In this document: piece after piece, positions 1 through 32,760 of the stretch | Numbering within the stretch: position 1 is the stretch's first letter | Layout of the letters: each line of letters begins with the position of its first letter | Source: Chondrosia reniformis | Taxonomy: Eukaryota > Porifera > Demospongiae > Chondrillida > Chondrillidae | Length of the DNA stretch: 64,000 nt | Assembly: GCA_947172415.1 (NCBI GenBank) | Contig: OX359193.1 | Location: 4,458,501-4,522,500, forward strand | Reading direction: 5' to 3' | Made by a program: the position numbers and the translations under genes | The notes under the pieces: generated by a model | Seen by the model: only the letters and a program-made list of their open reading frames with translations | Database searches by the model: none | What the model was told of the DNA's origin: nothing

Positions 1-1260
1 ATGTATGTTGTAGGTTATATATATTTGTGTAATGTATATTCTTGTACCTTGGGAGAGAATAGACATCGATGATTTTTTGATTTCAAGTACGCTTCAACAC
101 TGCCGACATCATTCTTAAAATCCTCAAATTGCTGAAGCCTACAAACCATATCAATCTTCACCATACCAGTGGTGTCCACACACCTCTCGCAAAACCAGCT
201 CCAACCCCTTAGGAGTGCCATTTGGTAGACACATCTCCTGTAAATTGCCATTAGGTAATCCCCCATCCCGCATCACTGGCTGATTCCCACCTGGCTTTAC
301 ATTCATTCGTGTGGCTACTAATGCGTTGTCATTATATGCCTGGTGACCACTGCTGTGGTCAAGGATCCATACAAGATCATATTTTTCTCTTGGATACTTG
401 AATTGGGCTATCATTGCTGCTGCTTTAATTTGATTCATGAACTTAGCATTGTCCCAATAGCCATCTCTCTGATGTTCGGTAATCCTACTGGCTTCCTTTG
501 GGCAAAAGGGATATTCTCGTTGCACAGCTCTGTGCTCTTCATCAGTAAGGCGGAGATAGCCAGAAAACTCATCAACAAAGTAGCTTACCATAATACCTTG
601 CCCTGTGCCTTTTGGTCGAACCTCACTACTACCACATGGATCCACCCAAACTGATGGTTTGGCATCATAGGCATTAAATGTTGTCTCGTCATGATAGATG
701 AATACCACATTTTTTACCCTTGAATTGCTGCCACTGTTCCATTATGGTATGTTGTCTTCACATGTGGGTGGAGGTAAAAGGGATGCCTCAAAAATCCTTA
801 CCTTCTTTAAATACAGCTTTCTGTATTCTACCATGTCTTCCCTCTCATGGCCATCTGCGTAGCCATGCTTGTATCGTCTGTGAGTAAATCCTAACCTTTT
901 CATATACCTAAAGGCAGTAGCTTCTGAAACATTCTTTTTAATGGTATCTGGGAACTCCAGCTTTTGAAGATATTCATTTAACCATGTCTGAAATCTCTTG
1001 TGAGTCAGGTTGAATTTTCTGTCATGAACTTTCTCCCTCAGCCATCTGACAGCTTTTCTGGTGACATCTTCTTGATCTAGTACAGTATCTCTTTTGTACT
1101 TACCCCTTTCAGAAGTTGCAAATTCACCTTCATTTCTACAGTATTGTCGTACCCATTGGTAGATGGTCTGTCTGGAATATCCCAATGCTAAACCAGCACT
1201 CTGAGCTGCCTTGGTCTTGTCTGGTTCATACATCTTGTGCAAATGGTGATATAGCAGAAC
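1..1260 (-). pseudogene. DDE transposase with N-terminal HTH, 3' part off the window
   Basis: Minus-strand gene for a cut-and-paste transposase, reading from about 1260 to the left edge. The N-terminal part (about 1257-742) looks like a helix-turn-helix DNA-binding region (GYSRQTIYQWVRQY) followed by a basic linker and a PPPTCEDNIP end. The catalytic part (708-151) has YHDETTFNAYD (first Asp), a RPKGTGQGI segment, a DHSSGH motif (second Asp) and GTPKGLELVLREVC (probable third acidic residue). A further exon (about 150-42) ends FSPK followed by a GTACAAG donor-like site. The frame changes between blocks, so introns or frameshifts are present. The same family occurs in fungi and in the 5585-bp repeat units of this window. 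I cannot name its superfamily with confidence. Confidence 0.75.
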
Positions 1261-1262
1261 TG

Positions 1263-1781
1263 CTATTTACTGAGCATTTCTCCAACATCTTTGGTGGTGC
1301 TTGGAATCTTTACAACAAGGTCCACAGCATCACGATGTGAAGTTGTGTTCTGAAGCTTCTGAAACCTTTCAAGAGCTTTCTTCCAATTGTCAAATCCAGT
1401 CTTGGAGAACACATCATCCTTGTTGCCAGATACAGGGAGACCACGTTTGTCTGCCACTAAGCAATAGAAGCAAAGGACATTGTCATTTCCTTCCTGGTAA
1501 TGTAGCCAAGGATATTTACGGTACCACGAGGCGCTAAATCCACGCTGTTGATCACCAAACTTCCTCAGGGGGAACGACAAGACTGGCTGATGAGGACTCC
1601 CCGGAATTAAAGCTGCATCAGGCAGGGGGGTGATTCTCTGCGACTCTTGCACCGCTGGCGCTCCACTTATTGGCTCAGGAGTGATCTGCTCGAGGTTGGA
1701 TTGCTGCTCAGGCTGGTCTGTTTGTGCAGCTGAAGATGTAGACGACTCCCCTGGCTTTTCCAGCCAAGACAACAGCGACAT
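1263..1781 (-). pseudogene. TTF zinc finger / hAT transposase N-terminal fragment
   Basis: A 172-codon frame with a Ser/Gln/Pro-rich leader and then RGFSASWYRKYPWLHYQEG and CFYC, the signature of the TTF-type zinc finger that opens ZMYM1-like hAT transposases. A conserved tail follows (FDNWKKALERFQ, SHRDAVDLVVKIPSTTKDVG). In this family the tail should lead into the long catalytic region, but the frame stops at a TAG (1263-1265) exactly where the neighbouring DDE transposase begins. Only the DNA-binding third survives. A BED-type hAT piece elsewhere in the window (35 kb) is a different family. Confidence 0.7.
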
Positions 1782-3308
1782 CTCTTGCTACGCTGCGTAC
1801 ACGCTCAAGCGAACATACACAAAGAAAAACGTACAGTATCGCACACGCATAATAATGGAGTCCCAGTCAAAATGGCGGCTGAGACGGTGTTAGTCACTAC
1901 TGCGTACGCGAACAAGTAAATACATGTTCCTAGCGAACAAAAGCCTATTAAAAGCAGTTTAAAGTGGAACAGCTGCATAGGAGAACAACAGTTTGAAAGA
2001 GATTGTTTTGCGAGCGTAGCGAGAAAAAATTTTTTTTCAAGCCCCCCCACTTGCTCAGCTGTTCCTACGCCCCTGTATAGGACAAGCAAGCTCAGGATTC
2101 AAGATTCAACTGACATTTGCACTTGTAACTTTATAAACCTATTGTAAATTATGTAATTTGTAAATTTATATATAATATGCATTGCATGTTCATGTGTGCT
2201 ATATACTGAACATACACAGGCAAGTTAATAAAGAATTTTATTGTATATGGATGCATGTGGCCTCTAAACTAACTTCTGAATCAAGATATGAAGTTGAGAA
2301 GGGACCATGTTGAAGTAACAAACTCTCTTCTGCTTCCCCACTTAAGCTGCTAGGTAAGTCATCTGGAGTGCTTTGCCATATGGGATGCTGGTTTGCAATG
2401 GGACTAGTACTAGCATGGAATAGGACTGTTGGTTGTGGATTCCAGCGTTTATTTATGGCTTTATATCTTCTGGCAGAACACTTTCTTTTGCCTTTCCATG
2501 GTGCTTGAGGTGAACTCAATTTTAAATTAATTGGATGACAACTGCTAGGTCCTTGAGTCGATTGCAGATGCTGCTTCGCAAAACTGAATTATCATGATGG
2601 CTGTCAGTATTGTTTCTTTCTTCCGTATTATCAGACATGGTGAGCTTTTAAACACCTTAAGGATCCTTATTAGAGTTGTTACGCTATTGTGATAGACGAT
2701 ATTTGCTTCGCAAGCTTTTCCAAAGATGAAAAAGCTTACGTATTTAAAGATCGTAAAGTGCCTTAGTACAAAAAGCTTCAAAGCGCCTCCCGCAATCGCA
2801 GGCCACTTTTATCTGAATGTTTACATCTTCTTCCGGAGGGTAACTAAAAGAAAATGCTGAATTTAAGGCTCCTTAGCATTTAAAGCCATACATAATACAA
2901 AAGTATTATCCTGCTTAACGCTGTGTTCGTTATCACTAGTGTTATGCCTCATTATATATGCAAACGTGACGAACTTCTCAAATCTGATTCGCCGATATAG
3001 TTACACCTACGTTTTGATTCCTTTCTCCCGAACGGAATAAGATACTTCAAATCCGAAAACATCATCTGAAGGCTGAATAAATTCTCTATCAAATGGTATA
3101 TTAGATGGTACCAACTATTGCTAATTTCACCTAGATTAGCTTTAAAGAAATTTGGTAACTTTATGATGAAATGAACTATATATATATTCTAAATATTTAA
3201 AAAAGAAAAGCATGAATATCTTCTTTGGTTCTCCTGTTATTATCCGCTAAATGTTAACAAAGTTGAAATTTTTCGGTCGGCTATTTTCGTATATGGTGGG
3301 GTCACAGG
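1782..3308. other. Intergenic, no recognised gene
   Basis: About 1.5 kb. It contains two minus-strand frames of 93 and 78 codons (2519-2238 and 2781-2545). The first is basic at its N terminus (KGKRKCSARRYKAINKRW) and could be a decayed exon, but I do not recognise either. The rest is AT-rich with short low-complexity runs. Confidence 0.4.
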
Positions 3309-3310
3309 GT

Positions 3311-3471
3311 TAAGGAAGATTAAAGACAGTAAAGGTATCTTTATAATCTTTAAGTAAGATTAAAGACAGTAAAGGTATCTTTACAGTGTTTAAGGAAGAT
3401 TAAAGACAGTAAAGGTATCTTTATAATCTTTAAGTAAGATTAAAGACATGTAAGATAATCTTTCAGATCTT
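3311..3471. repeat. 40-bp minisatellite, four units
   Basis: Four head-to-tail 40-bp units, each containing AAGATTAAAGACAGTAAAGG and a poly-T/ATCTT end. Units 1 and 3 are identical. Unit 2 differs at one position near its start and in its last bases, and unit 4 is degenerate. The pattern is therefore an 80-bp dimer duplicated once, with a decayed distal end. Confidence 0.9.
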
Positions 3472-5122
3472 TAAGCAACTTCCAAGGACTGGATCATCTA
3501 AATAATGTTATGTATAGGAAGACTGCTATAATTAGATCACTCTGATCCATGAATATATACGTACATTATCACATGCTATATAAATAGATTGATAATGCAT
3601 CATTTGCTATTGCTTCGGTATATAAAAGGGCACAACATGTACATGTAAGAAGGTCAAGAGAAGTCAAAAATATCGTGTCTTCCAATACATCTCTTAAACA
3701 TTAAGTTTCCTCAATTGAAGCAATTATATAGCTATATAATTATATATATAATAAGAGAACTGCATGAGCAAATGGAGCATATATATATACGTATATGATT
3801 AGTGCATGGAATTATAAACTGTATATGAAGATAGCGTTTCAGTAGAAATTTTTATATGACAACTTCTATAGTGGGAAAAGTAGATGAATCAAAGAGGGCA
3901 AAACAGTTAAAAACTGTAAGAGTTAGAGATGAATTTCAGGTGTCCAGCAGAAGAAAGCCAGCAGACTATGACAAGTTTAAATGGGCCATAAATGCAGTCC
4001 CAGAAGGAGGGGACAACAATGATATAAACCATGTATCTATAAATGGAAGGGAAGCACCAGTATCACAAAGCATACCAAGACATGCAGTAGCATAAAGAAC
4101 ATACTAGGAATTTTTAATAGCTAATCTGACTAGTAATTTACTAATTCTCAGTTAATATTTACCATTTTACTGTTGCTGCTTATAATGGTGGATTCATATA
4201 GTATATCAAATTTGTGGGGTGCTTAAGGACATACCATACAATATAGGGCAGTAAACATTCAAGCTATATAGTGACTTTACTTTTGGTATTTAATTGGTAG
4301 CCATTTTATGAATGACGTAAGCCCTTCATTTTATGAATGAAGTATTCTCTTCATTGATTGCTTTATTTATTTCAAATTGGAAATACACCTTAACCTTTTT
4401 CGACTGTGTGTACACATCACAAGAAACCACCAGTCAGACACGAAACATTGTGGTACTGTACCATCTGTGACATCTACCTTTGTCACACTGAGAAGTATGA
4501 ACAGACTGCTTTTATACAGTACCATAGGACAATTTACAGTACTGATTAGTGTATATATAACCTTAGATACTGTATACTACATATACGTATCTATGGTGTA
4601 ACTACTAGAAGTGACAAAAGTAGAGGTATTTTTGAGCCACTATAAATCAGAGAAGGATGGAATCAGTCTAACACGAAGACTTGTCTCGAATTGTTGAAAA
4701 TCTCAATAGACAAGAGGGCCGTTATATGTAGGAAAAGTGCCCTTACTAAAGCGAGAGCGGGTCAGGTAAAGTGAAGTGTATACTGACGTTTCACTTTGGG
4801 TGAAGAATATTACTGTAGTCCATCGATATACGTATTTTCTTATCATGAAAGAATTATGAACGCCCACCGTTTGCGATGATTGTCAATTTCCTTTGCCTTT
4901 ATCTCTTCGAAAAATGAAAGTTGTCTATACAAAAATTGTCTCGCTTCGATACTACAACCGGTTAAAGACACAGTGATAAAAATTTCTTCGACCTGTATTA
5001 TTCCGGCAAAAGCTTATGGTGGTTTCTGGTCACGCGCCCTTGCCAGAAGCAGCGGTTAATCGGTATATATAAAATATCATATAGGTGACATTACCTTTGC
5101 AAAAGAATTTACAAAATTAGGA
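3472..5122. other. AT-rich region without a recognised gene
   Basis: About 1.6 kb of AT-rich sequence with short ATATAT tracts. One plus-strand frame of 79 codons with an ATG start (3856-4095) is rich in Lys, Arg, Asp and Asn. It has no motif I know and may be chance. Confidence 0.3.
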
Positions 5123-5225
5123 CAGCCCATTCATACACAACTATTACACCACTTAACTTATAGGTCAATACATCATTTTGCAAATGGGGGCATTCAGGAA
5201 GCTTTAGTTAACGAAGATTTTCCAT
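5123..5225 (-). repeat. Dispersed repeat family R1, copy 1 (partial, inverted)
   Basis: Reverse complement of a block also present at about 17874-18030 and 44350-44520. The shared core reads CTTCGTTAACTAAAGCTTCC on the other strand, followed by a G(C/T)CGCCATTTGCAAA-like segment and a TATTGACGTATAAATTAAGT-like segment. It is non-coding and behaves like a MITE remnant. Confidence 0.7.
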
Positions 5226-5285
5226 TGTTATTTATTAAGTTCAGGACACTTTCTAAATAACAAGACTCTGTGGATTCCCACTCCA

Positions 5286-5573
5286 TTGTCAGGAGGCTTT
5301 TTTCGCAAGATGTAGATTGGCAGTGTGGTGTAGAACAGATATCCACTTTTCTTTCAGGAGTTCGGTGTTGCCATCACATGTCTGGCATGCCCACCACAGA
5401 TGATTACATATTGAACGAATCCATGGAAGAAGGTCGTTGCATCCTTTGTTTTTTGCAGCCTTTGTCAATTTCTTGACAATTCCTTTGGTCACATCCCAGA
5501 TGTCAAATTGATTGGTGATGTGTTGGTACTCCTTTTGGCAGAGAGAAGCAATACCAATGAAAATCGTGTTCAT
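5286..5573 (-). pseudogene. Kolobok-like DDE transposase fragment
   Basis: A 94-codon minus-strand frame contains NQFDIWDVTKGIVKKLTKA, then NHLWWACQTCDGN and LLKEKWISVLHH. This matches the central part of Kolobok-type transposases, where a [FY]D[VI]W[HD]xxKxxxKKL block precedes an NHLWW...C...GD block. The canonical His of the DxWHxxK motif is Asp here. No THAP finger, catalytic ends or TIRs are visible, so it is a short internal relic. Assignment to Kolobok rather than a related THAP transposase is from memory of the family. Confidence 0.55.
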
Positions 5574-7542
5574 CTGTCACCCCCATCCACCTCTGTCCCA
5601 GTATCTTGCTTTGAGAAATACCACAAATCAAAGAACATCCCTTAGTTACACTAATATGCTTTATAAAAACCTTTTGCAGAACAAACAGCCATTTTGTTTT
5701 ACTTATAACATTTCTTTACTTTTTTTACTTTTTTACATAACTGCATACTTGCGGTTTTCTGTAAACACTTCGATAAAATTTCCGTATATCGTTTTAACAT
5801 TATTTCTAATATATATAACTTTTTATATAGAAGGCTAGACGCTATAACTTTACAAACACATTTCTATTGCTAGCAACTTAGTACATACCTAAATATATAT
5901 GCATTGAAAAGAACATGGTGGAAGTGAAAGGCTGGCCATAACTAGCAATTTACTGCCAAAAACAGTAGAGTTAAAAAGTCGCTTACAAGCAGCACATCTT
6001 AGTAATGAAATTATATTTTAAGAGGCACCTCAGTGAACAGTTAGATACCTCTGCTAGAAGTCTAGTTACACTAGCATTACGAAATTTTAACCGTTATTTT
6101 CATGATTGTGTTTTCGACTAAGACTTTTGAATGAATAGCTGTTTTCAATAGGTAAAGCAGTTATGAGGAAATTAACAGTCAAACATTAAAGTAGATAGGC
6201 TCAAATGTTTTTAGTTCTTTCTAGATCTTCTGATTACTAACAGAAGCGGGGAAAAATATGGATTAATAATAATTATGTGATCATTTTGTGGTGGCCATTT
6301 TGTTTTCAGCTGCAATATGCAGGTTATACCTGCGTCAAATTTAGCCGAGACCCCTAAAAGGTAGACTAGCTACTTTGCTAAAGGGTAACAATGATTATTT
6401 TAAAGTACAGACTAGTCAAATCATAGCACTTAAATGGAAATCATTTTCTGTGCTATGTAACGGCCACTCTGATATTGGCATGTAATTATATGTATGATCT
6501 TGAGTGCCATAATGACCAGTCCCAATATATTGTTAGCACAGGAGGCAAAAACAAGTATTTCAAACACCTCATGGGTTGCCTGGCACCCCCAAACTGAAAC
6601 TACTTGCTGGTTATTAAATGTTCAGTCAACTGAATCTGGTCATCACTTGATTCCTATCAATTTCAAGGCCATGTCTTGTAGAAAACGTTTTTGCCTAAGC
6701 ATTTAATTAGTAGAAGCGATTTCTAAAGGAAGCAAAAGCTGATTTTTAAAGTAGAAAACGAAAGCTAGTCGAGCATCCGCCATTTTGTTGACAGATACAA
6801 ATAGTATACAGTTCAAGTTACAGTATTCTAAGGTAATCTGATATTTATGAATGGAGTCTTCTTTGTCTCCTTTAAGTGAAAACCACTTCAGGGATCACCT
6901 CTATTGGGTAAGTCATGGTATCTAAGGAAGTTGAATGAAGCTGGGAACTTTTGCCACTGTGATTAAGGCAGTGTACAATTTTATTTGTCCAAGCACAAGG
7001 CCAAGGCAAATGGAGTTGTTACACCAGGTGGTGTCTTTTTAGTTTTTAGAATAGACTGCCCACCTTGCAAGTGGAAAGATGTAGCTAGCTTACACTGCAA
7101 GAAAATACCTAGTTTGCAAGCATGGAAGCTGCTATGCTTTACAAGCAAAGGGAAACATTTGCAATTTTGAAAACTACATGTTTGATGAAGTGCACACTTT
7201 AAAAAAGGTTACTGAAATTGCAAAGGTTTTCTGTAGTTTGCATTATTTACAATAGTTTCAACCACAAGGTGAGATGGATTATGAACATAATTGAAGATAG
7301 GTCTTAAATAACGCCCCTTCCTAATGGATTAAATAATATACATTCCACACCTCTAGGTATCTGGCATGTGATTGACCTCTTTTTGGTGATCTTATACTGC
7401 ACTTTTATTGCACAATTGAATTAAAATGTATTTACAATCAGTTACAGTTTCAGTAAAACAAGTAATTCAAGTTTAAGGTAATAGGGGGGGCTAAAGGCTT
7501 TCTTTGGGGTACATTGGTCTTAGTGATGTATCTCTCTGACTA
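5574..7542. other. Non-coding stretch
   Basis: About 2 kb. Only short frames occur (70 and 61 codons at 6494-6706 and 6985-7170), with no recognisable motif. The sequence is AT-rich with A/T homopolymers and no clear internal repeat. Confidence 0.35.
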
Positions 7543-7935
7543 TAAGAAGGAGCTACGGAATAAACGAGTTGTAGCCAAGGTTAGATAAAGCGTATTTGTG
7601 TACGTTTCCGTTAAGTTTGAGGCAGAATTGTCCCTATATTCATGCAAATGAAATTTGTTTAGTCAACCGTATTAAAACTTTGGTAATTTAAGCTCAGTCT
7701 TCTCTTCTTACGTTTTTTGTTCATATTTTTACTTGTCCATGTGTAGGAATTAGGAATGTTTGTTGCGATTACTATGAGAATAAAGCCTTGTTGAGTGTTA
7801 GCAACATGAATTTACTAATTTCCTACCTGCTATTCCCATTCCTGTATTACTAATGAAGACCCCCGGGTTGAAACGTCCAGAATTAGTAAATTTATGTTAC
7901 TGATGTTCAACAAGGCTTTATTCTTATCCATGTGT
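7543..7935 (+). repeat. Dispersed repeat family R2, copy 1, with hammerhead-like core
   Basis: Begins near AAGGAGCTACGGAATAAACG and is clearly related to 18646-19040. The distal half is a foldback: a block around 7772-7820 (AATAAAGCCTTGTTGAGTG, then GAATTTACTAATTT) returns inverted at about 7880-7924. Between the arms lies TGAAGA (7854-7859), a short G/C hairpin, then GAAAC (7870-7874). That is the order of the hammerhead ribozyme core, although the C of the canonical CTGANGA is A here. No protein is encoded. Confidence 0.7.
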
Positions 7936-8223
7936 GTACGTTTTCCATGTGTACATACATGTACAGTAGAATCTCATAATGAAATTGCTCAAAGTGAATG
8001 TCTAAGTATAGTGAAGTACTTTGCTGGCTAATTACACTCAAGTACACTACACAGTGAAAGTTACTGGCAAATATATATAATATGAAAATTACTATCAAGT
8101 ACTAGACAGTTCAAGTTACAAATTTATGGGGTCCAAGTGACTATATAATATTAAAATTACAATCAAGTACTAGCTGCACATGCAGTGGAAGTTACAAATT
8201 TAAAGAAATCCAAGTGACCCATA

Positions 8224-8928
8224 GGATAATCAGTATTTTAAACAGTACAAGACTTTAGTCACACTGTTGGAGGCTTTGAAATTCTCAACTACTGCATAGA
8301 GAGAAGTAGTCGATACAGATCATCCAATTGCAAGGTAGAACACATGGCCTACCAATTACCTTTTCACACCTTAGTGTAGACTAAAGATGATGCATCTGCA
8401 TGCCATATATCAATACAGATTCCAGTCTTAAAAGGGTCTCAGCTAATAACCACAACAGATTTGATTTACCATGTGAGGGAGCTAAGAATACCGACGGTTG
8501 GTGGCATACATTCGTAAAATCAACAGGGTTACAGACCATTTTGTAACTTGTACACAAGGACATAAAAGGCCCAGGCCTTTATATACGTATGTCATATGAT
8601 ATCCCTTGTGTACAAGTTACAAAATGGTCTGTAACCCTGCTGATTATGCGAATGCATGCAACCAACCGTCGGTATTCTTAGCTACCTCACATGGCAAATC
8701 AAATCTGCTGTGGTTAGTAGCTGAGACCCTTTTAAGACTGGAACTTTTGTTGATATATGGCATGCAGATGCATCATCTTCAGTCTATACTAAGGTGTGAA
8801 AAGGTAATTGGTAGGCCATGTGTTCACTTTGCAATTGGATGATCTGTATCGACTACTTCTCTCTATGCAGTAGTTTGGAATTTCAAAGCCTGCAACTATA
8901 CGTACTATTTAAAATACTGATTATCCTA
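8224..8928. repeat. Large imperfect palindrome, ~335-bp arms
   Basis: The left arm starts GGATAATCAGTATTTTAAAC and the right arm ends with its near-complement GATTATCC. The inner ends pair across about 43 bp: CAGGGTTACAGACCATTTTG at 8523 against its complement at about 8620-8639. The arms differ by scattered substitutions and small indels. The spacer holds its own small palindrome, AAAGGCCCAGGCCTTT. There is no convincing coding capacity: the two ~60-78 codon frames are mirror products of the arms. It is probably a foldback transposon or an old inverted duplication. Confidence 0.9.
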
Positions 8929-13209: not shown

Positions 13210-14672
13210 ATGGCAACCGTAAGTGAACTCTTAGCGTTTAGTCTGTTGTTCTGGCTCTTTTACTCCCGCCTTTGTTCTAAAGATCGAAAGATCGAAGACA
13301 AAGGGTACAAAGACAGTTGCAAGGCTACAGGCGACGGATGCTGTTTGATGAAATGCACATGAGAAGAATCAGGTAAGTTGTCAGTCGCCCTATATAGCGT
13401 TCGAGTGAAGAACGCCTATAATAAGCTGAGCATATACAGAAGCAATCGTAAAGTTATAAATGATGGAGCGACTATGCTTGTGCTACGTAGGAACATATAG
13501 CATCAATACTCCATATTGCATTACTAGCTCATCATAATTCTGCTACACCATCTAGGAGAATTGTCATTAACCTTGGGTGTTATAGCAGGCTATCATCAAG
13601 AAACTACACCCGTTCAGTGTGGTGCAGGCCAAGAAACAACAGGTGGTGGGAATCGGTGACTGGTGGAATTTTTGGTGAAACCTCGTGGAAGGAAAATTTA
13701 AGAATGTTACAGTCATCCTTTAACATTTTGTGTAGTGAAGTAAGGCCATACATTCAAAAGCAAACTACACAACTTCGTCATCCAGTGAGTGTTGATAGGC
13801 GTATGGCTGTCACCCTTTGGAGGCTTGCCACAAATATTGAATATAGGACCCTCTCCCAGCTTTTTGGCATTGGTATATCAACAGTTGGTACAATAGTGAA
13901 TGAAACATGTGATGTGATATCTAAGAGGTTACTGAAGAAGTATGTGTGCATACCACAGGGCCAGCATATGAGGGAGAATGTTAATGGGTTTGATGCTATA
14001 TGGGGTTTCCCACAGGTGGCTGGTGCTATTGATGGCAGCCACATACCTATCATAAGGCCTAAACAAAGTGCATCAGATTACTATAATCAAAAAGGTTACT
14101 ATTCCATCATATTACGGGGATTGGTGGATTTTAGGGGACTTTTTATTGATGTTTATATTGGATGGCCCGGAAAAGTGCATGATGCAAGAGTTTTTGCAAA
14201 TTCTAATGTATATGCAAAAGGTAGCACAGGTACCCTGTTTCCTGACTGGAAGAGGAACCTTTTGGGAGTAGATGTACCTCTGGTAATTTTTGGAGATCCT
14301 GCTTATCCAGCAATGCCTTGGCTCATGAAGCCGTATCCAGAGAATGAGCACACACCAGCTGATAAAAAGCAATTTAATTACAGGCAAAGTAGGGCACGCA
14401 TGGTGGTAGAAAATGCTTTTGGGCGGCTGAAGGGTAGATGACGTAGTCTTCTCAAGAGAATAGACAGTAGTCTAGATAATGTACCTAACATTGTTGCAAC
14501 TTGTGTAGTGTTGCACAATATTTGTGAATACTATAGAGATAACTACTTGGAAGAATGGAGCTATCATAACAACCACCTCCAGCAACCAGTAGCTACTTAT
14601 AGCAATTTAAATGAGGAACCAGGGTCAAATACCATTCGTGATGCCATTAAGGATTACATAGTTGCTAATTAA
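13210..14672 (+). pseudogene. Harbinger transposase (HARBI1/ALP1-like DDE), one in-frame stop
   Basis: DDE_Tnp_4-type transposase. The main exon opens after a probable acceptor near 13588 and reads to TAA at 14670-14672. The catalytic residues are visible: Asp in VAGAIDGSHIPI, Asp in GWPGKVHDARVF and Glu in VVENAFGRLKGR. An HTH-like segment precedes them (TLSQLFGIGISTVGTIVNE). A TGA at 14439-14441 replaces the Trp expected after GRLKGR; the sense frame resumes at once (RSLLKRIDSS, then VLHNICEYYRD) and runs 76 codons to the true end. A short first exon may start at ATG 13210 and splice at the CAGGTAAG near 13371, but its frame does not join cleanly. Apart from the stop it is close to full family length. 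Confidence 0.9.
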
Positions 14673-22910: not shown

Positions 22911-23432
22911 AAATACCCAATTAGCAATAAACAACATAGACAATATTCACTTAGCTTATGAATGGCAAAGCATTTTGCAAAATAACAATAGCAGATTGTT
23001 TTTGACCACCATGTGAATACCTACCTAATTCATCAATTTCTCTATCAATATTTTAAGATACTCAATATGTCTAAAGATCAATCTGTACCATTAAAGAGGC
23101 ATGATGCAGTGTTATTTATGCACTTGCTCAGATTTATAAGGCTTTTATATGTGCAGTTTTAATGTATTGACTATATATGTCACATACACGTATACTTGCA
23201 ACTTGCATACACATGGTTGCCTACAAACAAGCTACTGCATCTGGTAGGCCTTCCTCACTACATGTATCTTCTTTAACTCATTATTTACAGCTTTAATACA
23301 TGGGCCATCACCTCTTCTAAATTCAGAGAGGCGAGTGATAGCTTCCTACTATATTAAGTATAGAATTTGTTTATTATTGTTATACATATGATAATATCCT
23401 TCTTAAATAGTCCTTACAGCTTGTTTAGCCGA
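22911..23432. other. Probable intron and partial exon of gene X
   Basis: Mostly non-coding. The last ~40 bp before the target site read, on the minus strand, as the continuation of the gene X exon at 32254-32494 (SAKQAVRTI, then stop). Confidence 0.4.
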
Positions 23433-23437
23433 ATCCC

Positions 23438-23684
23438 TTATGGCGACAGATTAGTGTCACAATTAGAGGGTATATACATACCCATTAGAGGGTATATACA
23501 TAACAATTAGAGGGTAATATCCTTTCATTTGGGTGTATACACCTTTCATTTGGGTGTGTATATTTTAATTGGGTGAGTGCGTGTGAGCATTCTGTTTGGG
23601 TGTATAACATCGAGAATTAATCGCCCTCTGTGAAATCACACATGGGCCTGTAACACGTAACTTGTCACGTGAGCCTTTTCGATG
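23438..23684 (+). repeat. Left terminal inverted repeat of the 8.8-kb element
   Basis: Contains three copies of a (A/C)ATTAGAGGGTA(T/A)AT motif, two or three of CATTTGGGTGT, then AATTAATCGCCCTCTGTGAA and GGGCCTGTAACACGT, ending TTTTCGATGCA. It has one extra tandem unit in each motif array and a ~15-bp insertion relative to the right repeat. Confidence 0.88.
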
Positions 23685-24465
23685 CATGCACAGTCAATTC
23701 AAGTTCCTGTTTTATTTCTGCTAAAGACCTGCTTCATGCTCTTATGGTGTTGAAGTCACTTTCCTTTTTATTAGTAAGTTGAAGTGTCTATAGGCCGTCG
23801 ATTAAAGAGTGTTTCTGAAGATTTCAGCTCAGGTGCCACCTTATGATTGCTTATGTTAACGTCCATTTACTGTATTTAGAATCAGCAAGAAGCTTCAGCC
23901 ATTTTCTTGTATCTCTGAGGGCAGAGTTATTCCAACACAGGCTAAAAATAGGTTAATCCCATCCTAATGCGTGCTAATTTAGCTGCACGTTTTAGGAACA
24001 GCGCTTTATGAAGGCTATTTTAGCACTCGCCTCATGGTACAATTATGCAAGCTATTTTGATATTTCACTCGCATTTCCATGTCATTTCACGCTGTAGTAA
24101 TAAGGTATCTTTTGAAACAAATAGTTTGCCGTATGCTGTACGCATTAGGATGGGAAGTGTATACACTTCTCTGATCTAATCTTACGTATGAAAAAAATTT
24201 TTCACTTTTGATGATTATCTCTTTGTGATCTACACTTCCAGTTTTACCTGCAGCTCATTTTAATGTTGAACTCTTGGATATGCCAATATGTAAGGTCTAT
24301 TGTGGTGGACCTGACCGATCAGGATGAGTATACTTATGAGGCAATTCAAAACTATGTGTGGAGGATTGAAATGATATATTGAGATCTTTTGGCTAAGGAA
24401 TTAGCTAATGGACTAGAAGACTCGGAGAAAGAAGCACTAGAATACATAGCTCAAGCCCATTGTAG

Positions 24466-24695
24466 TGTAATAATGATGGGGACAAACAATTACTTCGAGA
24501 TGGCAGAGGATATAGCAAGCGTCCGACAACACCGCGATGAACAGCAATATGATTCAATCAAGGTACAGCTACAAGAACTCAAAAGGATTAACTAACACGA
24601 GGACACTCAAACACGTTACTTCCGTTCATATATAATTGAGTTCACAGGTAAGTGAGAACACATACACTAATCTGACAGTCAGGGGGCATACTACA
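24466..24695 (-). repeat. Gypsy 3' LTR
   Basis: A 230-bp direct repeat of 27525-27755. In element orientation it starts TGTAGTATGCCCCCTG and ends ...CATTATTACA. It abuts the polypurine tract on its high-coordinate side. Confidence 0.93.
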
Positions 24696-24733
24696 CACTT
24701 CCCCCCTAAATCCTACAAGTTCAACATGCATAG

Positions 24734-27505
24734 TTAAACGTGTCCATAACGTTCCACTGGCTTCACAGCTCTTCCACTTCGAGTAGTCACGCAAGGAGGA
24801 CAGGCCAGACGTGTGGTGGACGTGGCTTCTAGATCTGGTGGTTCAGCGTGCATCTCCTCGGTTTCTTCAGAGCTTGGAGGAGCTGCTCCAGCTGTAGAGG
24901 AATGAAGTGGCTGCTGTCGAGGGTCAGAAGGCGGTGCAGAAGGCAGCATTGAGGAAGCCCCTACATTATCCTCGTGGTGAAATAGGGGAGACGACCACTC
25001 AGCCTGTGGCTCCTGATTTTTGCTTTCCTCTGTGAGCAGGGGGCATACACGATTCATGTGCACTGCACGATTTTTGGATCCTAGGCGCAGCAATACTGTT
25101 GTGGGCCCTCTCAGGCCACTGACTGTCCAAGGACCTGTCCATCTTGGGTCCAGCTTTCCCCTGGTAGGGTTGTTCAGTAGCACCTTCTGCCCAACAAGGA
25201 GTCTTGAACTGTTTTCTCTGTCTTGGCCAGCTCGACCTTGACGATATGCTGATTCCACAATGTTTGCATCCACAATCTCTCTCAAATGAAGAAGCTTGCT
25301 CTTCAGGTTCATGCTGTAGTCTGAGGGTTCAGGAATCACAGTGCCAGGCACGTCTGGGATTTGTAGAGAAGGCGGATTAGATCCAAAGAGAACCTCGTAG
25401 GGTGACATTCCAGTCGAAGCATGTTTTGTTGTTCTGTACAGGAACAGGAGCAGCTGTAAGTGTTTCTCCCACTCCCCCTCCTTTTCAGTATAGGAACGCA
25501 GTAAGTTTAGGAGTGATCTGTTCATACGCTCCACTAGGCCATCTCCCATTGGGTGATAGGGGGTGGTGTGGGACTTTCTCACGCCAAACGCCTCACATAA
25601 ATCACCAAGGATTCGGCTTTCGAAATTTCACCCCTGATCCGAGTGGAGCTGTTGAGGAGGACCAACCAGGGAGAAGACGTTGTCTCTCAGTGTTTGTGCT
25701 ATCCTCTCCGCTTTCTGGTCTGGCATTGCCTGAGCGAAGGACCACTTTGAAAAGTAGTCTTGGGCCACCAACAAGTACTGGTTTCCTGTGGTGGACATGG
25801 GGACCTTGAGAATGTCGACAGCTACAAGTTCCCATGGTCGTCTGGCAATCACAGGTTGTAGAGGGGCCGGCTGGTTGTTTGGAGCCTTGGTGAGTTGACA
25901 ACGTACACAGAGCCAGCAATGATGGGCCACATCTCTTCCTAGTCCGACCCAGTAGGCAATCTGGCCATGGTCCTGTCAATGCCCTGGTGTCCAGACTCCT
26001 CATGAGACCTGCGCAGAAAGTCCGGCTGTTTAGATTTGGGGATAATGAGTAACAGGGAGTCTTCTGACAGGGTAGGTGACCTCACCCTGCGGTACAGGAC
26101 ATCATCATGCAGAATCAACTGGGACCATATTTGCTTGTAGCGCTTCAGGGGATATTGCCCCCACTCCCTTGTAGCAGGGGGTGTCTGGTGGCGTTCAAAC
26201 AGGTCTATAACCTTGATTAAAAGTGGATCCGACCTCTGGGCCTGACTGAATTCGTGCCTGTCCAGAGGGGAGCGCAGAGCCACCAGTCCAATGGGCATCC
26301 CAGAGAGTGCATCTGCATTTTGGTTGGTTGCTCCAGGCTTATAGACTATGTTAAACTGGTAGGCCCTGAGCTCAAGAGACCACCGCTCTAGACGTTGTGA
26401 TCGGGCATGGCTGGTTCTGGCGGACTCCAGCCATTCAAGTGGCTTGTGGTCTGTTTCCAGAGTGAAGTGTTCTCCGACCACATAATGACGTAATTTGCGG
26501 ACTGCCCAGACAATGGCAAGGCACTCCTTTTCTATTGTGGCATACTTCTTTTCCGCTGAAGAGAATGTTCGACTGGCATATTCCACCACTCTGCCACGTG
26601 AAGTTGAGAGAACTGCGCCCAGACCAACATCGGAGGCATCTGTGGTGAGAATGAACTTGTCAGTCTGTCTTGGGTAGTCAAGGACTGGGGGTGATATTTA
26701 GCGCCTGTTTCAAGGACTCAAAGACTTTTTGATGAGTGTCCTACCATGTAAAGGATACCTTGTTCTCAGTGAGACTGGTGAGTGGGGCAGCAAGATCAGC
26801 AAACTTGGGAATGAAACGCCTGTAGAAGTTGACAAGACCCAGGAAGGACCAGACTTCCTTAGTAGATGGGGGTATGGGCCACTTGGTAATTGCTTGTGAC
26901 TTTCCTGCTGCTGGGGTCACTCCACTGCCTGTATACTCAACCCCAGGTGAGTTACCTTGTTTCTGCCAAAGAAGCACTTCGAGCCGCGAAGTGTGAATCC
27001 AGCCTGGTGGAGTCTGCCAAGAACACGTCTGAGGTCTTTGATGTGAGACTCCATGCTATCCGAATAAACAATGCAGTCATCCACATAGTTTTCCACACAG
27101 TCCTTGCAGTCTTTCAAGACTCTGTCAAGTCCTCGTTGGCATGTCTGGGTGGCTCCTGTTAGCCCGTATGGCATTACAGTGAATTCCCAGAGTCCATATC
27201 CTCTCTTGATCACGAAGTCGCCTCCTGGAGAGTACGTCGCGGGCGCTCAGTCTGTCCTCATCTGTGTCCGGACTCAATCTCTCAAGGATAGCCGTCTTCA
27301 GACTATCGTAGGATTTCTTCTGCTCCTCGGACAAAGCGTCAAAGACGGCCCATGCTCAGCCACGCAAGAGGGTCGGCAGTCGCAGGAGTTTCTTTGCTGC
27401 GTTCCACTCATTAGCGGCAGCACAAACTTCGAATCGCTTGAACCACGACTTTGCATCGTTGTCTAGAAGGGGCTCCGGTAGTGCAAGGCCAACGTTGGAA
27501 GCCAT
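24734..27505 (-). pseudogene. Gypsy gag-pol remnant
   Basis: The gag start lies at 27505 (ASNVGLALPEPLLDND, KSWFKRFEVCAAANEW). A TGA at 27356-27358 interrupts it, and sense frame continues to ARDVLSRR near 27235, where a deletion fuses it to the middle of reverse transcriptase. RT keeps FTVMPYGLTGATQTCQRG and the catalytic YVDD, then FLGLVNFYRRFIPKFADLAA. RNase H shows YASRTFSSAEKKYATIEKE and TDHKPLEWL. Integrase has an HHCC-like zinc region (HEESGHQG, CWLCVRCQ), Asp in VAVDIL, Asp in LHSDQG followed by a TGA (25628-25630), and Glu in LVERMNR, with a tail to 24734. A frameshift lies near 25940. It cannot make functional proteins. Confidence 0.9.
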
Positions 27506-27523
27506 TCCCGGGTTTCGGCACCA
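27505..27523 (-). promoter_or_regulatory. Primer-binding site, tRNA-Phe type
   Basis: The plus strand here reads TTCCCGGGTTTCGGCACCA, which is the 3' end of animal tRNA-Phe including CCA. In element orientation it is the complementary PBS, beginning one base after the 5' LTR. The tRNA identity rests on my memory that metazoan tRNA-Phe begins GCCGAAA. Confidence 0.8.
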
Positions 27524-27524
27524 G

Positions 27525-27755
27525 TGTAATAATGATGGGGACAAACAATTACTTCAAGATAGGCAGAGGATATAGCAAGCGTCCGACAACACCGTGATGA
27601 ACAGCAATACGATTCAATCAAGGTACAGCTACAAGAACTCAAAAGGATTAACTAACACGAGGACACTCAAACACGTTACTTCCGTTCATATATAATTGAG
27701 TTCACAGGTAAGTGAGAACACATACACTAATCTGACAGTCAGGGGGCATACTACA
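27525..27755 (-). repeat. Gypsy 5' LTR
   Basis: A 231-bp direct repeat of 24466-24695 with TG...CA-type ends in element orientation. One extra base and about four substitutions separate the pair. Confidence 0.93.
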
Positions 27756-29515
27756 GTAGCATTAACAATTGCGCAGGTTCTGCACTTTCTCAAAATGACT
27801 TTTATACTCCTTCTCAAGCACAGCTATTGTATACTGGTGCTGTTGGATGGCCTTCGTTCGATATACCACATAGCCAATTGCTAAACCTGATAGAGTGGAG
27901 ATTTTCAGTTCCACGAATTGCCCAACTTATGGCTGTATCAGTTAGCACCATCAGACGCTCTATATCTAGATACAGCCTATCTAATCGAGCTACTTATTCA
28001 TCAATTAGTGATGAAGAATTAGATCATTTAGTAGCAACTGCACAGCAACAGTTTCCAAACAAGGGAAATAGGCAAATGTATGGTCGCTTGATAAGCCAGG
28101 GCATAAGGGTTCCTTTCCTCCGTGTGCAACAATCACAGAGAAGACTTTATCCAGAGGGTTCTATGATGCGAAGACTGCAACACATTGGAAGGAGGTGTTA
28201 CTCTGTTCTTGGACCCCAGCACCTTTGGCATGTTCATGGTCATCATAAACTCATCAGGTTTGACTATATGATTCAGGCTTTAATATGAGTTTATATAGTT
28301 TACGTGCATCATATACACTGGGATATAGGTGGGAGTGTTCTCCCATGGTATATATGTTAATTATTTTTTATTTATAACAGATCATCCACAGTGATGCAGC
28401 TCTTTTCTGAAGCAGTTAATATGTATGGTCTGCCAAGTAGGGTTAGAGCTGACAGAGGGGGCGAGAACATCCAAGTTGCTGACTTTATGATTTCACAACG
28501 TGGATGTAACAGAGGAAGTTTTATTTGTGGTCGAAGTGTTCACAATCAACGCATTGAGCGGCTATGGCGTGATGTGTTCAATTCCTGCCTAGTGCTATAC
28601 TATAGCTTGTTCAAATACATGGAAAATATCGGCATAATATACATTGACAATGACCTACACATTTTTTGCCTCCACTTTGTCTACTTGCCTAGGATAAACA
28701 GCAGTTTAATCCAATTTGAAACTACATGGAATGATCATCCACTGTCATCAGTTGGTCAGTTGAGTCCAAATCAATTATGGATGTCTGGATCCCATCCCAA
28801 TGACACTTGTACTGATGTAAGTATCTTAGTAGATTAATATTTTGTATGAACATATATATGTAAAATTCTGTTCTGTATCCAAATGAATTACCATTTTTTG
28901 GTATTGACTGGGATGGACCACTACCTAACTGTGATGATGATACTGTTGATGTGGATCCACCCAGGGTACCATTGACTCATGAAGACTACCAAGAACTGTC
29001 TCAAACTATCAATCCTCTTGAACATACTTCTGAATACGGCATTGAACTTTATGTAGAAACTCTTCAGTTTGTTCTGGACAAATTTGTTTCTGATTAATGA
29101 TTTATACATTTAAAAAAGGGTTCACACATCTATTTTGTAACTTATATATACTACATAGTAATTAATGTCTGTCTGTTTGCTATATAAATTATATATATAA
29201 CCTTGTCATTCAAAGGACAAGTTCATACATTACACATTTATTAAACACTGTTAAATATTTGGGGTGAGGCAAATTATAAGCGTATATCAAAATTTGCAAA
29301 ACTCTTTGGATATGTTTAATGGATGTCTGTGAATGCTGAGACCAAGTTTCAGCTTCCTATCCGTCCATTTGAAGGAGTTGCAGCACATATAATAAATTCA
29401 GGTATACCAACTTAATGTATGGTGAGAGATATATACTACCCAAGTTACAAAATACTATAGCAATATAATTAATGTAATATATTATATATATAATGTAATT
29501 GTACAGGCATACATG

Positions 29516-29544
29516 CTGAAGAGGACCTAGCTACGGGTCGAAAC
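29516..29544 (+). ncRNA. Hammerhead-ribozyme-like core
   Basis: CTGAAGA (29516-29522), then a hairpin pairing GGACC with GGGTC, then GAAAC (29540-29544). This is the conserved CUGANGA - stem II - GAAA order. The sequence after it (ACGTTTACTTC, then TGTTGCTGATTGCTCCTATA, CCTTTATTC) resembles the tail of repeat family R2. Stems I and III were not verified, so activity is unknown. Confidence 0.45.
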
Positions 29545-29924
29545 GTTTACTTCAAATCAATTTGTTGCTGATTGCTCCTATAAACCTTTATTCATATAAA
29601 TATATATACATTTACCTGGATGTTCATTTATATACAATGATGGGCATGTAACTTGGGTATACCTTGCATGCCATGGACATCGATCGTTAGGGTTAGGGTA
29701 GGATTTAGTGTTACCCCTAACCATATATATATACATATATACCTTATGGTGCTTATACATTTTTTTGAGACATGCTTACACACATATACATTAACTATAA
29801 TTTCAATTGAATTTATAAATTATTACAATTACAATTACAAAGAATAACATAAAATCACTGTTTAATTAATCTGCAGAAATCAAACAATGCATACAGCTGG
29901 TACTAAGTAGTACCAAAGCCATCC

Positions 29925-30014
29925 TACCAATTAGCCATTCATCATATGAATCATTCAAGTACTGCATGGCTATGCAGTACTTGAATGATTCATATGATGA
30001 ATGACTAATTGGTA
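29925..30014. repeat. Near-perfect 43-bp palindrome inside HECT C terminus
   Basis: Arms 29925-29967 and 29972-30014, with a 4-nt loop (GGCT) and one mismatch in 43. In the HECT frame it turns SYESFKYC... into its mirror-strand translation, so the normal C-terminal tail has been overwritten by an inverted copy of adjacent sequence. Confidence 0.95.
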
Positions 30015-31399
30015 AGGTCAGTCTCAGTGAGCAAGTACTTGCCAAGGCCAATAATCCATCACAAAAATGAAGCTCTGGTTCAGAAGTAAATCCAAGAGGG
30101 GGTACTTTATCTGTACCCATAAAGAATTGAAGTACATCCCCCATCTTGACAGGTTTTCTGTCTTCTGTTTGTACATTTCCATCTAAAATGAAACAAAACC
30201 TGGCAACTTAAAAATTACATATACTGAAATATAAACCTTCACACTCATCTAAAAAGTCCATGAAGTAGATGAATACTGCTTCTTCCTTCATTTTCTCATC
30301 AGGTTTGGCATTTCTAGTAAACTTCACTTCCAACAAGGATTTAATATACCCTATAAAATATAGAATGCAATAGTACTTATATATATATAATAAGTTGATT
30401 AATGAACAAATATACCTTTGTTGACATCAGCGCTTTCTTTAGCTGTAAAAAGTGGTTCCATGATGGTGGGGAATTCTCCAATTTTCATCTAGAATCCCCA
30501 ATGTCTTCAGGCCATCACAAAATTGGTCCAATTCTGGTTTGATTTTGGTCAAAGTGTGGTAATCACGGATAGCCTGCTGTACCTGGGGCTTTTCTTCAAT
30601 GGTCATAATGCACAAAGGCCTTTAGAATCCTTTCTCTAAAAGAAGGGCTAAATTTCCTTCATCTTCAAAAAGTAGCTCCAATGAAGAATTTGTTTCAGCT
30701 CCCTGAATCTAAAAAAATAAGTATATATATGAGTTAATTCAAAGCTAATAATCAGTACTGTATATAAATGTACCTGCTTTAATATTTCCTTCACAAACGG
30801 ATCAGGGATGTCATCATCAGGGATATCTAGCCTCAGGTACTCTCCAGTCACTATATACTGATATGCTACAGGCAGCAAGACTGGAAACCCATTACCCCCT
30901 TGGATAATTGACTTGGTAATCAACATTCCAATGTATCTGAATTCTTCCTTCTATAGACATATCAATTATATATGTACGTATATGTATATGAATGGATAAC
31001 AATTAAGGTATATTATATATGCATGCTACATTAGATAAATTACATGCTAGCTCTCTTGCAAAGCTGAAACATTTTTAAGAAAGAAACATTCTCCTGGCTC
31101 TCCCAATACAGAAGGAAATTACACAAGATCCTTTACAAATAGGCGCCAAAATTCTCTACTGAGCCCTCCTATGTAAATTCCCTGTTTCCCAACAAAGTGT
31201 ACCTAAATTGGAATATTGTACGTGCAAGCCTGATATCAAATATCAAACATTCATATACTAATCATATACCTTTAACAGTTTTGTAGGATCAAATCTTGGC
31301 TTTTGTGCTTCCCTTAAACCATCCTTTACCACCATTGATCTTCGTATGTCAATACTGTTGCGGTGAGCCTCAAGCCGAACAAGCAAAAACCGAAGTTCA

Positions 31400-31600
31400 T
31401 ATTAAACAAGTATTTTGAGTTAAAAAACTCGTGCCCCCGCGCTCGAATTACTTGGTCACTTTGTTGGACTTATATTTAGTTGTAATCTTAATGATTCTGA
31501 ATGTTTACGTGTCCACAAAATTAGAATGAACAATTACCAAAAGCTTCTCAAATGCCGCCATTTGCACTTGCATATAAAATAAGTGCTTATTCAATCTACT
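31400..31600 (+). repeat. Dispersed repeat family R1, diverged copy in HECT intron
   Basis: Shares the order AAAAACTCGTG..CC..CCGC, TAATCTTAATGATT, GTGTCC, AAAAGCTTCTCAAATGCCGC, CATTTGC with the copies at 17756 and 44230, at clearly lower identity. It lies between HECT exons 1 and 2, so the element lengthened an intron. Confidence 0.6.
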
Positions 31601-32061
31601 GTAATATATTATGTACGTATGTGTCTACGCCTGAACTTACTATTTCTTGTGTCACTAACTCTATCTAGCTGGGCCATAGCCCTCCGCAAAAACTCCCTCG
31701 TTGCTTGTACTTCTTTAGAATCCATTATACTAAAACAAAAAAGTGTAAGAATCGCTTCGCACTGCGACAGTTAGAGTGAATAAATGTTGATAAACTAACT
31801 ATATTCTCGATGCAAACTTACATTTCACTGAAAGAAAACTTATCTTCACCGAAGTAATAACTAATAACAATAGAGAAAGCAAAAATCCATACGACATAGA
31901 GAACCAAACAATCTACCAGAAAACTAGTGTCTGTATATAGACTGCGCATGCGCAGGTTTTCTCAACAGAGCATGCTCGGGACAATGTGCTACGGGACAAC
32001 TTAAAATCAATTAAAATTATAATACACTTCTATAGCGCTATTTCGTCAGCTGGAGTCCTTG

Positions 32062-32253
32062 CATCGAAAATGGTCACGTGTTACAGGCCCATGTGCGATT
32101 TCACAGAGGGCGATTAATTCTCCATGTTATACACCCAAACAGAATGCTCACAAGCGCTCACCCAATTAAAAAATACACACCCAAATGAAAGGAAAATACC
32201 CTCTAATTGTTATGTATATACCCTCTAATTGTGACACTACTCTGCCGCCATAA
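32062..32253 (-). repeat. Right terminal inverted repeat of the 8.8-kb element
   Basis: Inverted counterpart of 23438-23684. It has two AATTAGAGGGTA motifs instead of three and fewer CATTTGGGTGT motifs. The outer end CGCCATAA abuts ATCCC. Confidence 0.88.
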
Positions 32254-32760
32254 ATCCCATGCCTATTTTCCCAATTGTTGTACCTCTTGCATATCCTCAA
32301 TTGAGGTGTCTTGTAGTGCCAACCACATTAGTGTATCATCAAACTGCTTAGCATTCATCTCATGGAAAAGTGCATTTTCTCGCATTTCACAAACAGAACC
32401 GGCATCACAATTACAGAATATCCGATCTGTGGCAAGCATCCTTGAATTCCTTGAACAGTTTGCTAGGCTGACATGAAGAGCAGGAATGGCAACCTATATG
32501 CCGAGAAATTTATACTGGTTAGAACTTTCACACCAATTAATTCAAGGTATTTATGTACTTAAAAATATATATTGATCCTAACCTGATATAGTGGAATGTC
32601 AAAAAAGTGTTGTTCTATTACAATGTTGCAAAATTTTGCTTAAGGCAGTTTCCTACCAGCTTCAGTAAACTTCTTATAATCTTCATCTAAAGATGCCAGA
32701 GATCTAGTAGGAAACTGCCACACTGCTTGTTCCTCAGATGGCTGTTGCATAGACTTAGCG
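32254..32760 (-). pseudogene. Gene X, central exons, split by the 8.8-kb element
   Basis: Upstream exon (about 32760-32585): MQQPSEEQAVWQFPTRSLAS, then DEDYKKFTEAG, one stop, AKFCNIVIEQHFFDIPLYQ. After an ATAG acceptor at 32495 the next exon reads VAIPALHVSLANCSRNSRM, FCNCDAGSVCEMRENALFHE and a stop near the target site. If the inserted element and one ATCCC copy are removed, the frame runs on into the short piece below 23437 (AWD then SAKQAVRTI). The 'W-FPTRSLASL ... LFDIPL-QV-IP-LH-SLG' style matches the family whose C terminus is at 22640-22910. Function unknown. Confidence 0.5.

Follow-up and report, generated by a model that had tools for sequence, protein, structure and literature searches.

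We found that a DNA transposon in the genome of the sponge Chondrosia reniformis is very probably a decayed two-gene element of the IS3EU type that carries a resident HECT ubiquitin ligase gene. The element occupies positions 23439-32252 of the window, the 64,000-nt stretch that was analysed (C5:4458501-4522500), has the ends TATGG..CCATA, and contains the HECT gene in convergent orientation with a transposase gene. In the 117-Mb genome searched (15 contigs), four complete elements belonging to three families hold both genes between terminal inverted repeats (TIRs) and target-site duplications (TSDs); these complete elements are firmer evidence for the pairing than the association counts described below. 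The identity of these elements as transposons of the IS3EU type in which a HECT ligase resides is strong.

Complete elements and their compact relatives

The TIRs of the window element are about 223 nt long on the left (23439-23661, plus strand, beginning with TATGGCGACAG) and about 180 nt long on the right (32073-32252, minus strand, ending in CCGCCATA), the latter being delimited by the inverted-repeat match and by comparison with L042, another member of its family. The long TIRs that had been claimed in a sequence-only reading of this DNA are indeed present, with the arm pairs 23527-23661/32073-32207 and 23438-23508/32183-32253 being 91% and 86% complementary, respectively, and more than 8.4 kb lying between the arms. 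That reading also gave the TSD as ATCCC; the duplication is real, but comparison with L042 showed it to be the 6-bp AATCCC (23432-23437, repeated at 32253-32258), of which ATCCC is five bases, with one extra T at position 23438 on the left side. The reiterated motifs it described were likewise found: within the window, ATTAGAGGGTA and TTTGGGTGT are each confined to the TIRs, with three occurrences in the left one and two in the right one, and a 22-bp tandem repeat makes up part of the left array. The TIR sequences of L047 and L049 differ from those of the window, yet tandem arrays are present near their ends too, and such arrays may represent putative transposase-binding sites.

L042, the fuller copy of the window family, is located on contig 4 (element 545-8649), where its TATGG..CCATA ends are flanked on both sides by the 6-bp TSD CATATA. 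As the sequence-only reading had anticipated for a two-gene element, other copies carry rva_4 transposase and HECT genes between TIRs, both in the same family (L042) and in other families (L047, 2999-8183, and L049, 1377-7608); the two genes are convergent in all three. The TSDs of these complete elements are AATCCC (window), CATATA (L042), TTGATC (L047) and ATCACC (L049). A further locus, L051, has TIRs and both genes, with no TSD found. The ends TATGG..CCATA are shared by the window element (after the extra T), L042, L047, L051, L054, L055 and L056, and the left end of L049 is TATAG. All six TSD bases match in the window, L042, L047, L049, L054 and L056, and five of six match in L055. The ends of L042, L047 and L051 were chosen by TIR match alone; for L049 and L054 to L056, only TA-type starts were searched (TGT also in one search) and at least five of six matching flank bases were required, and these ends are therefore partly selected. 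For L045 and L053, only one end could be located, and the TIRs of L046, L050 and L052 could not be resolved.

Compact relatives are also present. Specifically, L054 (630-2514, 1885 bp) and L055 (5645-7852, 2208 bp) are complete, transposase-only elements, within which searches with the element C-lobe and N-terminal proteins gave no accessory match, and L056 (5327-7706) contains the transposase and only the N-terminal exon of the ligase gene, the HECT domain being absent. The transposase frames of L054, L055 and L056 are long and open (386, 474 and 394 aa, respectively). In addition, L053 and L055 have identical terminal 24 nt and share 98% identity over a 936-nt transposase stretch, with a HECT C-terminal fragment in the former and no HECT in the latter, within one family. 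The sequence-only reading had regarded TIR elements lacking HECT sequence as speaking against a two-gene element; such elements do exist in L054 and L055, and L056 retains the N-terminal exon. Since complete elements without the HECT domain exist, the HECT gene is frequent but dispensable, and since compact relatives possess the transposase without it, it is not strictly needed for movement. Transposase and ends seem to suffice, and supply of HECT in trans is possible. A protein-kinase frame in L056 was rejected as element cargo because it sits outside the TIRs of that element; it resembles a frame in L046 (4849-7014), where the kinase frame lies on the same strand near an element-type HECT C-lobe with no rva_4 match nearby. 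L044 contains a 414-bp miniature inverted-repeat transposable element (MITE; 831-1244) with L047-type ends and the flanks CCAATG/CCAACG, which shares a 10-kb stretch with a solo end of the window family.

The claim of an integrase-type transposase was borne out, as the window protein matches the Pfam family rva_4 (PF24764; E 2e-55), with the L054 protein matching it at E 1.7e-77. Across nine aligned transposase rows, the DDE triad is invariant at its second Asp and at its Glu, and the first Asp has been lost from the window copy; the residues of the DDE motif are presumed to be the catalytic ones. The L054 and L055 frames gave no H2C2 match at E <= 1, and both match helix-turn-helix families. 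The Ginger1 or LTR-integrase (long terminal repeat) type is marked by a 4-bp TSD and an HHCC finger. The published description of IS3EU gives TA..TA termini, TSDs that are usually of 6 bp and an integrase-like DDE transposase lacking the HHCC motif, and the TSD length of Ginger1 is from the same source (PMC10045372). The elements described above have TA..TA termini, 6-bp TSDs, an integrase-like DDE core and, in L054 and L055, no HHCC match ahead of the core, a combination that differs from Ginger1. Judged by ends, TSD and core, the window element fits the IS3EU type.

The recurrent second gene distinguishes it, as the main text of the IS3EU source contains neither HECT nor ubiquitin (PMC10045372). 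A further parallel is provided by fungal TET-bearing IS3EU elements, which end in TAYGG..CCRTA, have TIRs longer than 30 bp and TSDs of 6 bp, and carry an alpha-kinase gene in the orientation opposite to that of the transposase, with TET/JBP between them (PMC12730594). They resemble the present elements in end type, TIRs, TSD length and the placement of an accessory enzyme gene opposite the transposase, but their accessory enzymes are an alpha-kinase and a TET dioxygenase, and neither HECT nor ubiquitin is mentioned in the main text of that source (PMC12730594). A HECT gene in IS3EU was not found in the literature searched, with Repbase reports and subscription papers lying outside that search and a prior mention being possible. 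In Cottus fish, blastx gave protein matches for 27 of the 122 repeat candidates left unclassified, the ubiquitin ligase G2E3 being named among these matches (PMC5638112), a hint of ligase-bearing repeats in other animals, with no element structure given in the passage concerned.

Outside this genome, 4 and 16 pattern matches for relatives in viral contigs yielded none that was confirmed. Among 34 pattern matches in prokaryote genomes, three were confirmed, all in the assembly of a Cycloclasticus symbiont of a Poecilosclerida sponge (L057 to L059), with rva_4 identities of 45-48%, contigs of 3.4-4.2 kb and no HECT found. These contigs are probably sponge host DNA in a bacterial assembly; their rva_4-type transposases are broken in L058 and L059, and retroelement-like frames are also present in L058.

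Structure and conservation of the ligase gene

The structure of the ligase gene is best seen in L042, where the gene model comprises 10 exons, nine GT-AG introns and 675 codons ahead of the final stop. The spliced HECT region has a complete N-lobe and C-lobe with Cys at the catalytic place, covers positions 28-305 of the 306 in the PF00632 profile (E 9.4e-14), and aligns nearly end to end with WWP2 in the Protein Data Bank (residues 128-479 of 481, E 7.8e-10), with Thr-Cys at the catalytic place. Similarity to WWP2, Itch, HUWE1 and E6AP, and to the host HECT genes, is only distant. The N-terminal half had no Pfam match, and its domain is a candidate for a ubiquitin-like (beta-grasp) fold. From its sequence, the element ligase combines this putative ubiquitin-like domain at the N-terminus with a C2HC-type motif and a complete HECT domain, for which ligase activity is predicted. 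The multi-exon HECT ligase claimed for the window held in that the gene and its Thr-Cys motif are present, but the copy is broken, and the weak match of its last exon to PF00632 (E 0.018) falls short of the curated cut-off, which the homologous L042 exon clears (E 5e-7).

Divergence between families is deep, and the ligase protein is conserved across it even though synonymous sites are close to saturation. A blastn search with the window element gave nothing in L045 to L047 and L049 to L051, and a 23-nt match in L048. In six between-family pairs of HECT-gene segments, which span the N-terminal domain, N-lobe and C-lobe, protein identity was 36-58%, with synonymous divergence (dS) ranging from 1.2 to saturated and nonsynonymous divergence (dN) of 0.36-0.62; a transposase pair behaves likewise. 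Cys stands at the catalytic place in eight of the ten element C-lobes read, the other two (L047 and L051) having Tyr. In a 69-column tree, element and host C-lobes were separated by a split with a support of 0.913; this tree omitted seven loci repeating others, one reverse-strand window frame and rows shorter than 36 columns, and three of the host rows retained in it represent the same exon.

Genome-wide association and the possible role of the ligase

The rva_4 profile gave at least 77 matches, which were merged into 54 loci, and searches with two element C-lobe and two N-terminal protein queries (E <= 0.05) gave 35 merged, element-type accessory loci. Of these 35, 21 lie within 7 kb of an rva_4 locus, 19 of them being convergent and downstream, so that 19 of the 54 rva_4 loci have a convergent accessory neighbour; one of the 19 represents merged contig 1 matches from 5643157 to 5649359, the convergent one being at 5649204. 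Random placement (2000 trials, with partly approximated contig sizes) gave means of 0.245 near and 0.07 convergent loci, with maxima of 3 and 2. The Pfam HECT profile gave 77 matches in 30 loci, seven of which lie within 7 kb of rva_4 and are all element-type; of the remaining 23, one is element-type (C7:2312196) and 22 are host-type, that is, not matched by the element C-lobe queries, and none of these 22 is within 7 kb of rva_4. That an unrelated HECT gene merely came to lie beside or inserted into a transposon is a negligible prospect, ruled out by the second copy L042, the other families and this association, in which chance would give 0.07 convergent pairs and 19 were counted; both genes are also present in four complete elements bounded by TIRs and TSDs. 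At C4:1899088-1899453 and C4:1913205-1913570, two equal-score matches to the N-terminal domain were found in open frames of 245 aa that lie more than 7 kb from any rva_4 locus; they may be remnants of elements or reflect use of the domain by the host.

Several results weigh against a two-gene element. The proposal of such an element was upheld for the 19 of 35 accessory loci that are convergent downstream of rva_4, but no rva_4 locus lies within 7 kb of 14 of the 35, and 35 of the 54 rva_4 loci lack a convergent accessory match within that distance; the pairing counts also overstate independent events, because related copies are not independent. A full HECT gene was present in none of five rva_4 loci (L053 included), which had been chosen as high-scoring loci without a nearby Pfam HECT match. 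Each of the four complete two-gene elements has damage in at least one of its genes: the window element is broken in both genes, the L042 HECT gene carries an in-frame stop, L047 has stops in its rva_4 matches as well as Tyr for the catalytic Cys, and L049 has stops and Gly in place of the first Asp; L051 has Tyr at the catalytic place. Within-family dN/dS ratios are weak (0.79 for the window versus L042, and 0.38, on nine changes, for L046 versus L048). Finally, transposase and C-lobe distances were uncorrelated over six loci (Mantel r 0.045, 270 of 720 permutations being as good), and co-inheritance of transposase and ligase is therefore unsupported. Small trees of the two proteins have the pairs L049-L053 and L047-L051 in common and place L042 and L045 differently, the L053 C-lobe in the tree being a 56-aa fragment. 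In the transposases of L053 and L055, there are 16 nonsynonymous differences and one synonymous difference.

Because the pairing recurs in several families, the ligase is probably part of how these elements persist in the host. In the mechanism we propose, the integrase-type DDE transposase would act on the TATGG..CCATA ends and yield 6-bp target duplications, and the element-encoded ligase would be a helper that ubiquitinates another protein, thereby allowing the element to spread or persist better. A host silencing or repair factor would be a likelier target than the transposase, and we put a host target somewhat below an even chance. Compact relatives lacking HECT would borrow the ligase in trans or manage without it.

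Alternatively, the ligase may mainly target the transposase of its own element or the transposase-DNA complex, limiting its level or stripping the complex after integration. We consider such self-regulation unlikely, perhaps one case in several; two convergent genes in one element would stay at matched dose, the ligase gene has been kept over long divergence, and the HECT-less L054, L055 and L056 have long open transposase frames, as if a brake had been lost, but the absence of a full HECT gene from all five chosen high-scoring loci suggests a brake easily dispensed with, which fits poorly with conservation between families.

Slightly less likely again is that HECT is passive cargo, a host gene captured once with no benefit to the element. 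HECT-less elements have moved (TSDs of 6/6 bases in L054 and L056 and 5/6 in L055), the copies have decayed, the distances of the two genes are uncorrelated and the within-family ratios are weak, all of which would be expected of cargo; the excess of dS over dN between families in all three parts of the gene, the Cys kept in eight of ten C-lobes and the convergent layout kept in 19 of 21 near pairs argue otherwise.

It is improbable that the transposase requires the ligase as a partner in the way that RAG1 requires RAG2. The recurrent pairing would agree with such a role, but transposase-only elements with TIRs and TSDs (L054 and L055) and the MITE with L047-type ends are contrary to it, unless supply in trans were to rescue the idea.

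Returning to the resident ligase as a helper acting on another protein, we regard it as evenly balanced whether animal-type IS3EU elements have, as an old and conserved second gene, a ubiquitin ligase (ubiquitin-like domain, zinc finger and HECT) that reprograms host protein turnover. If so, these elements, as selfish DNA, would parallel through ubiquitin the fungal IS3EU elements that bear kinase and TET genes, and some expansions of HECT or G2E3-like genes in animals may consist of transposon genes; for genome surveys, this urges caution, as counted HECT genes may belong to transposons. Transposons encoding host-regulation enzymes (SET, TET and kinases) attract broad interest because of their use in counter-defence; if a ligase has been kept beside the transposase across several families of elements, protein turnover would join that list, and there would be a concrete handle on the host factor restraining such elements.

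Decay of the window copy

The two-gene element was proposed without notice of a nested 3.29-kb LTR retroelement or of the breakage of both genes. The transposase gene, on the plus strand, is broken by the retroelement insertion, the loss of an Asp and a 74-bp deletion. Its 5' coding part ahead of the retroelement (24215-24461) was located by match to the L042 frame, with two window frames matching at 89.7% and 95.7%, and its start codon was not determined. The next exon (27757-28273; Pfam and comparison with L042) contains the helix-turn-helix region and the first DDE motif, in which codon 28235-28237 encodes His in the window and Asp, the first of the triad, in L042. It is followed by the exon that encodes the other two residues of the triad, Asp and Glu (28376-28834; same basis), from which 74 bp of L042 are absent at 28376/28380, and by the C-terminal exon (28864-29097), identical in protein over the aligned part to L042:6090-6305 (minus strand).

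The retroelement (24466-27755, minus strand) is foreign to the transposon. It has LTRs of about 230 bp (approximately 24466-24695 and 27525-27755) and the TSD GTAG (24462-24465 and 27756-27759), and L042 has an empty site at this position. Its frames are broken and match RT_RNaseH (E 1.5e-35) and Integrase_H2C2 (E 8.6e-5); from these domains, we take it to be of the Ty3/gypsy type. Being separate, on the opposite strand and equipped with its own LTRs and TSD, it was ruled out as the origin of the transposase domain.

The HECT gene, on the minus strand, is broken by deletion of exons 2-4 and part of exon 5, a stop, frameshifts and a terminal foldback. By comparison with the L042 gene model, it retains exon 1 (31641-31725), only the 3' part of exon 5 (31270-31376), exon 6 with the start of the N-lobe and two indels (31056-31202), the open N-lobe exon 7 (30774-30950), exon 8 with an in-frame stop and a 1-bp frameshift (30416-30708), exon 9 (30237-30350) and exon 10 with the C-lobe and Thr-Cys motif (29965-30182), the end of which has been replaced by the foldback. 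About 1.66 kb of L042, including exons 2-4, is absent at 31376/31377. The foldback (29925-30014) is a near-perfect, 43-nt inverted repeat of the end of the HECT gene, and the L042 gene matches one arm only. Between the two genes, L042 has a tandem array (5141-5722) of a 164-bp unit in 3.5 copies with 99% matches, of which the window has one unit. Outside the element, a 316-aa frame at 13491-14438 of the window represents another transposase (DDE_Tnp_4, E 1.3e-24).

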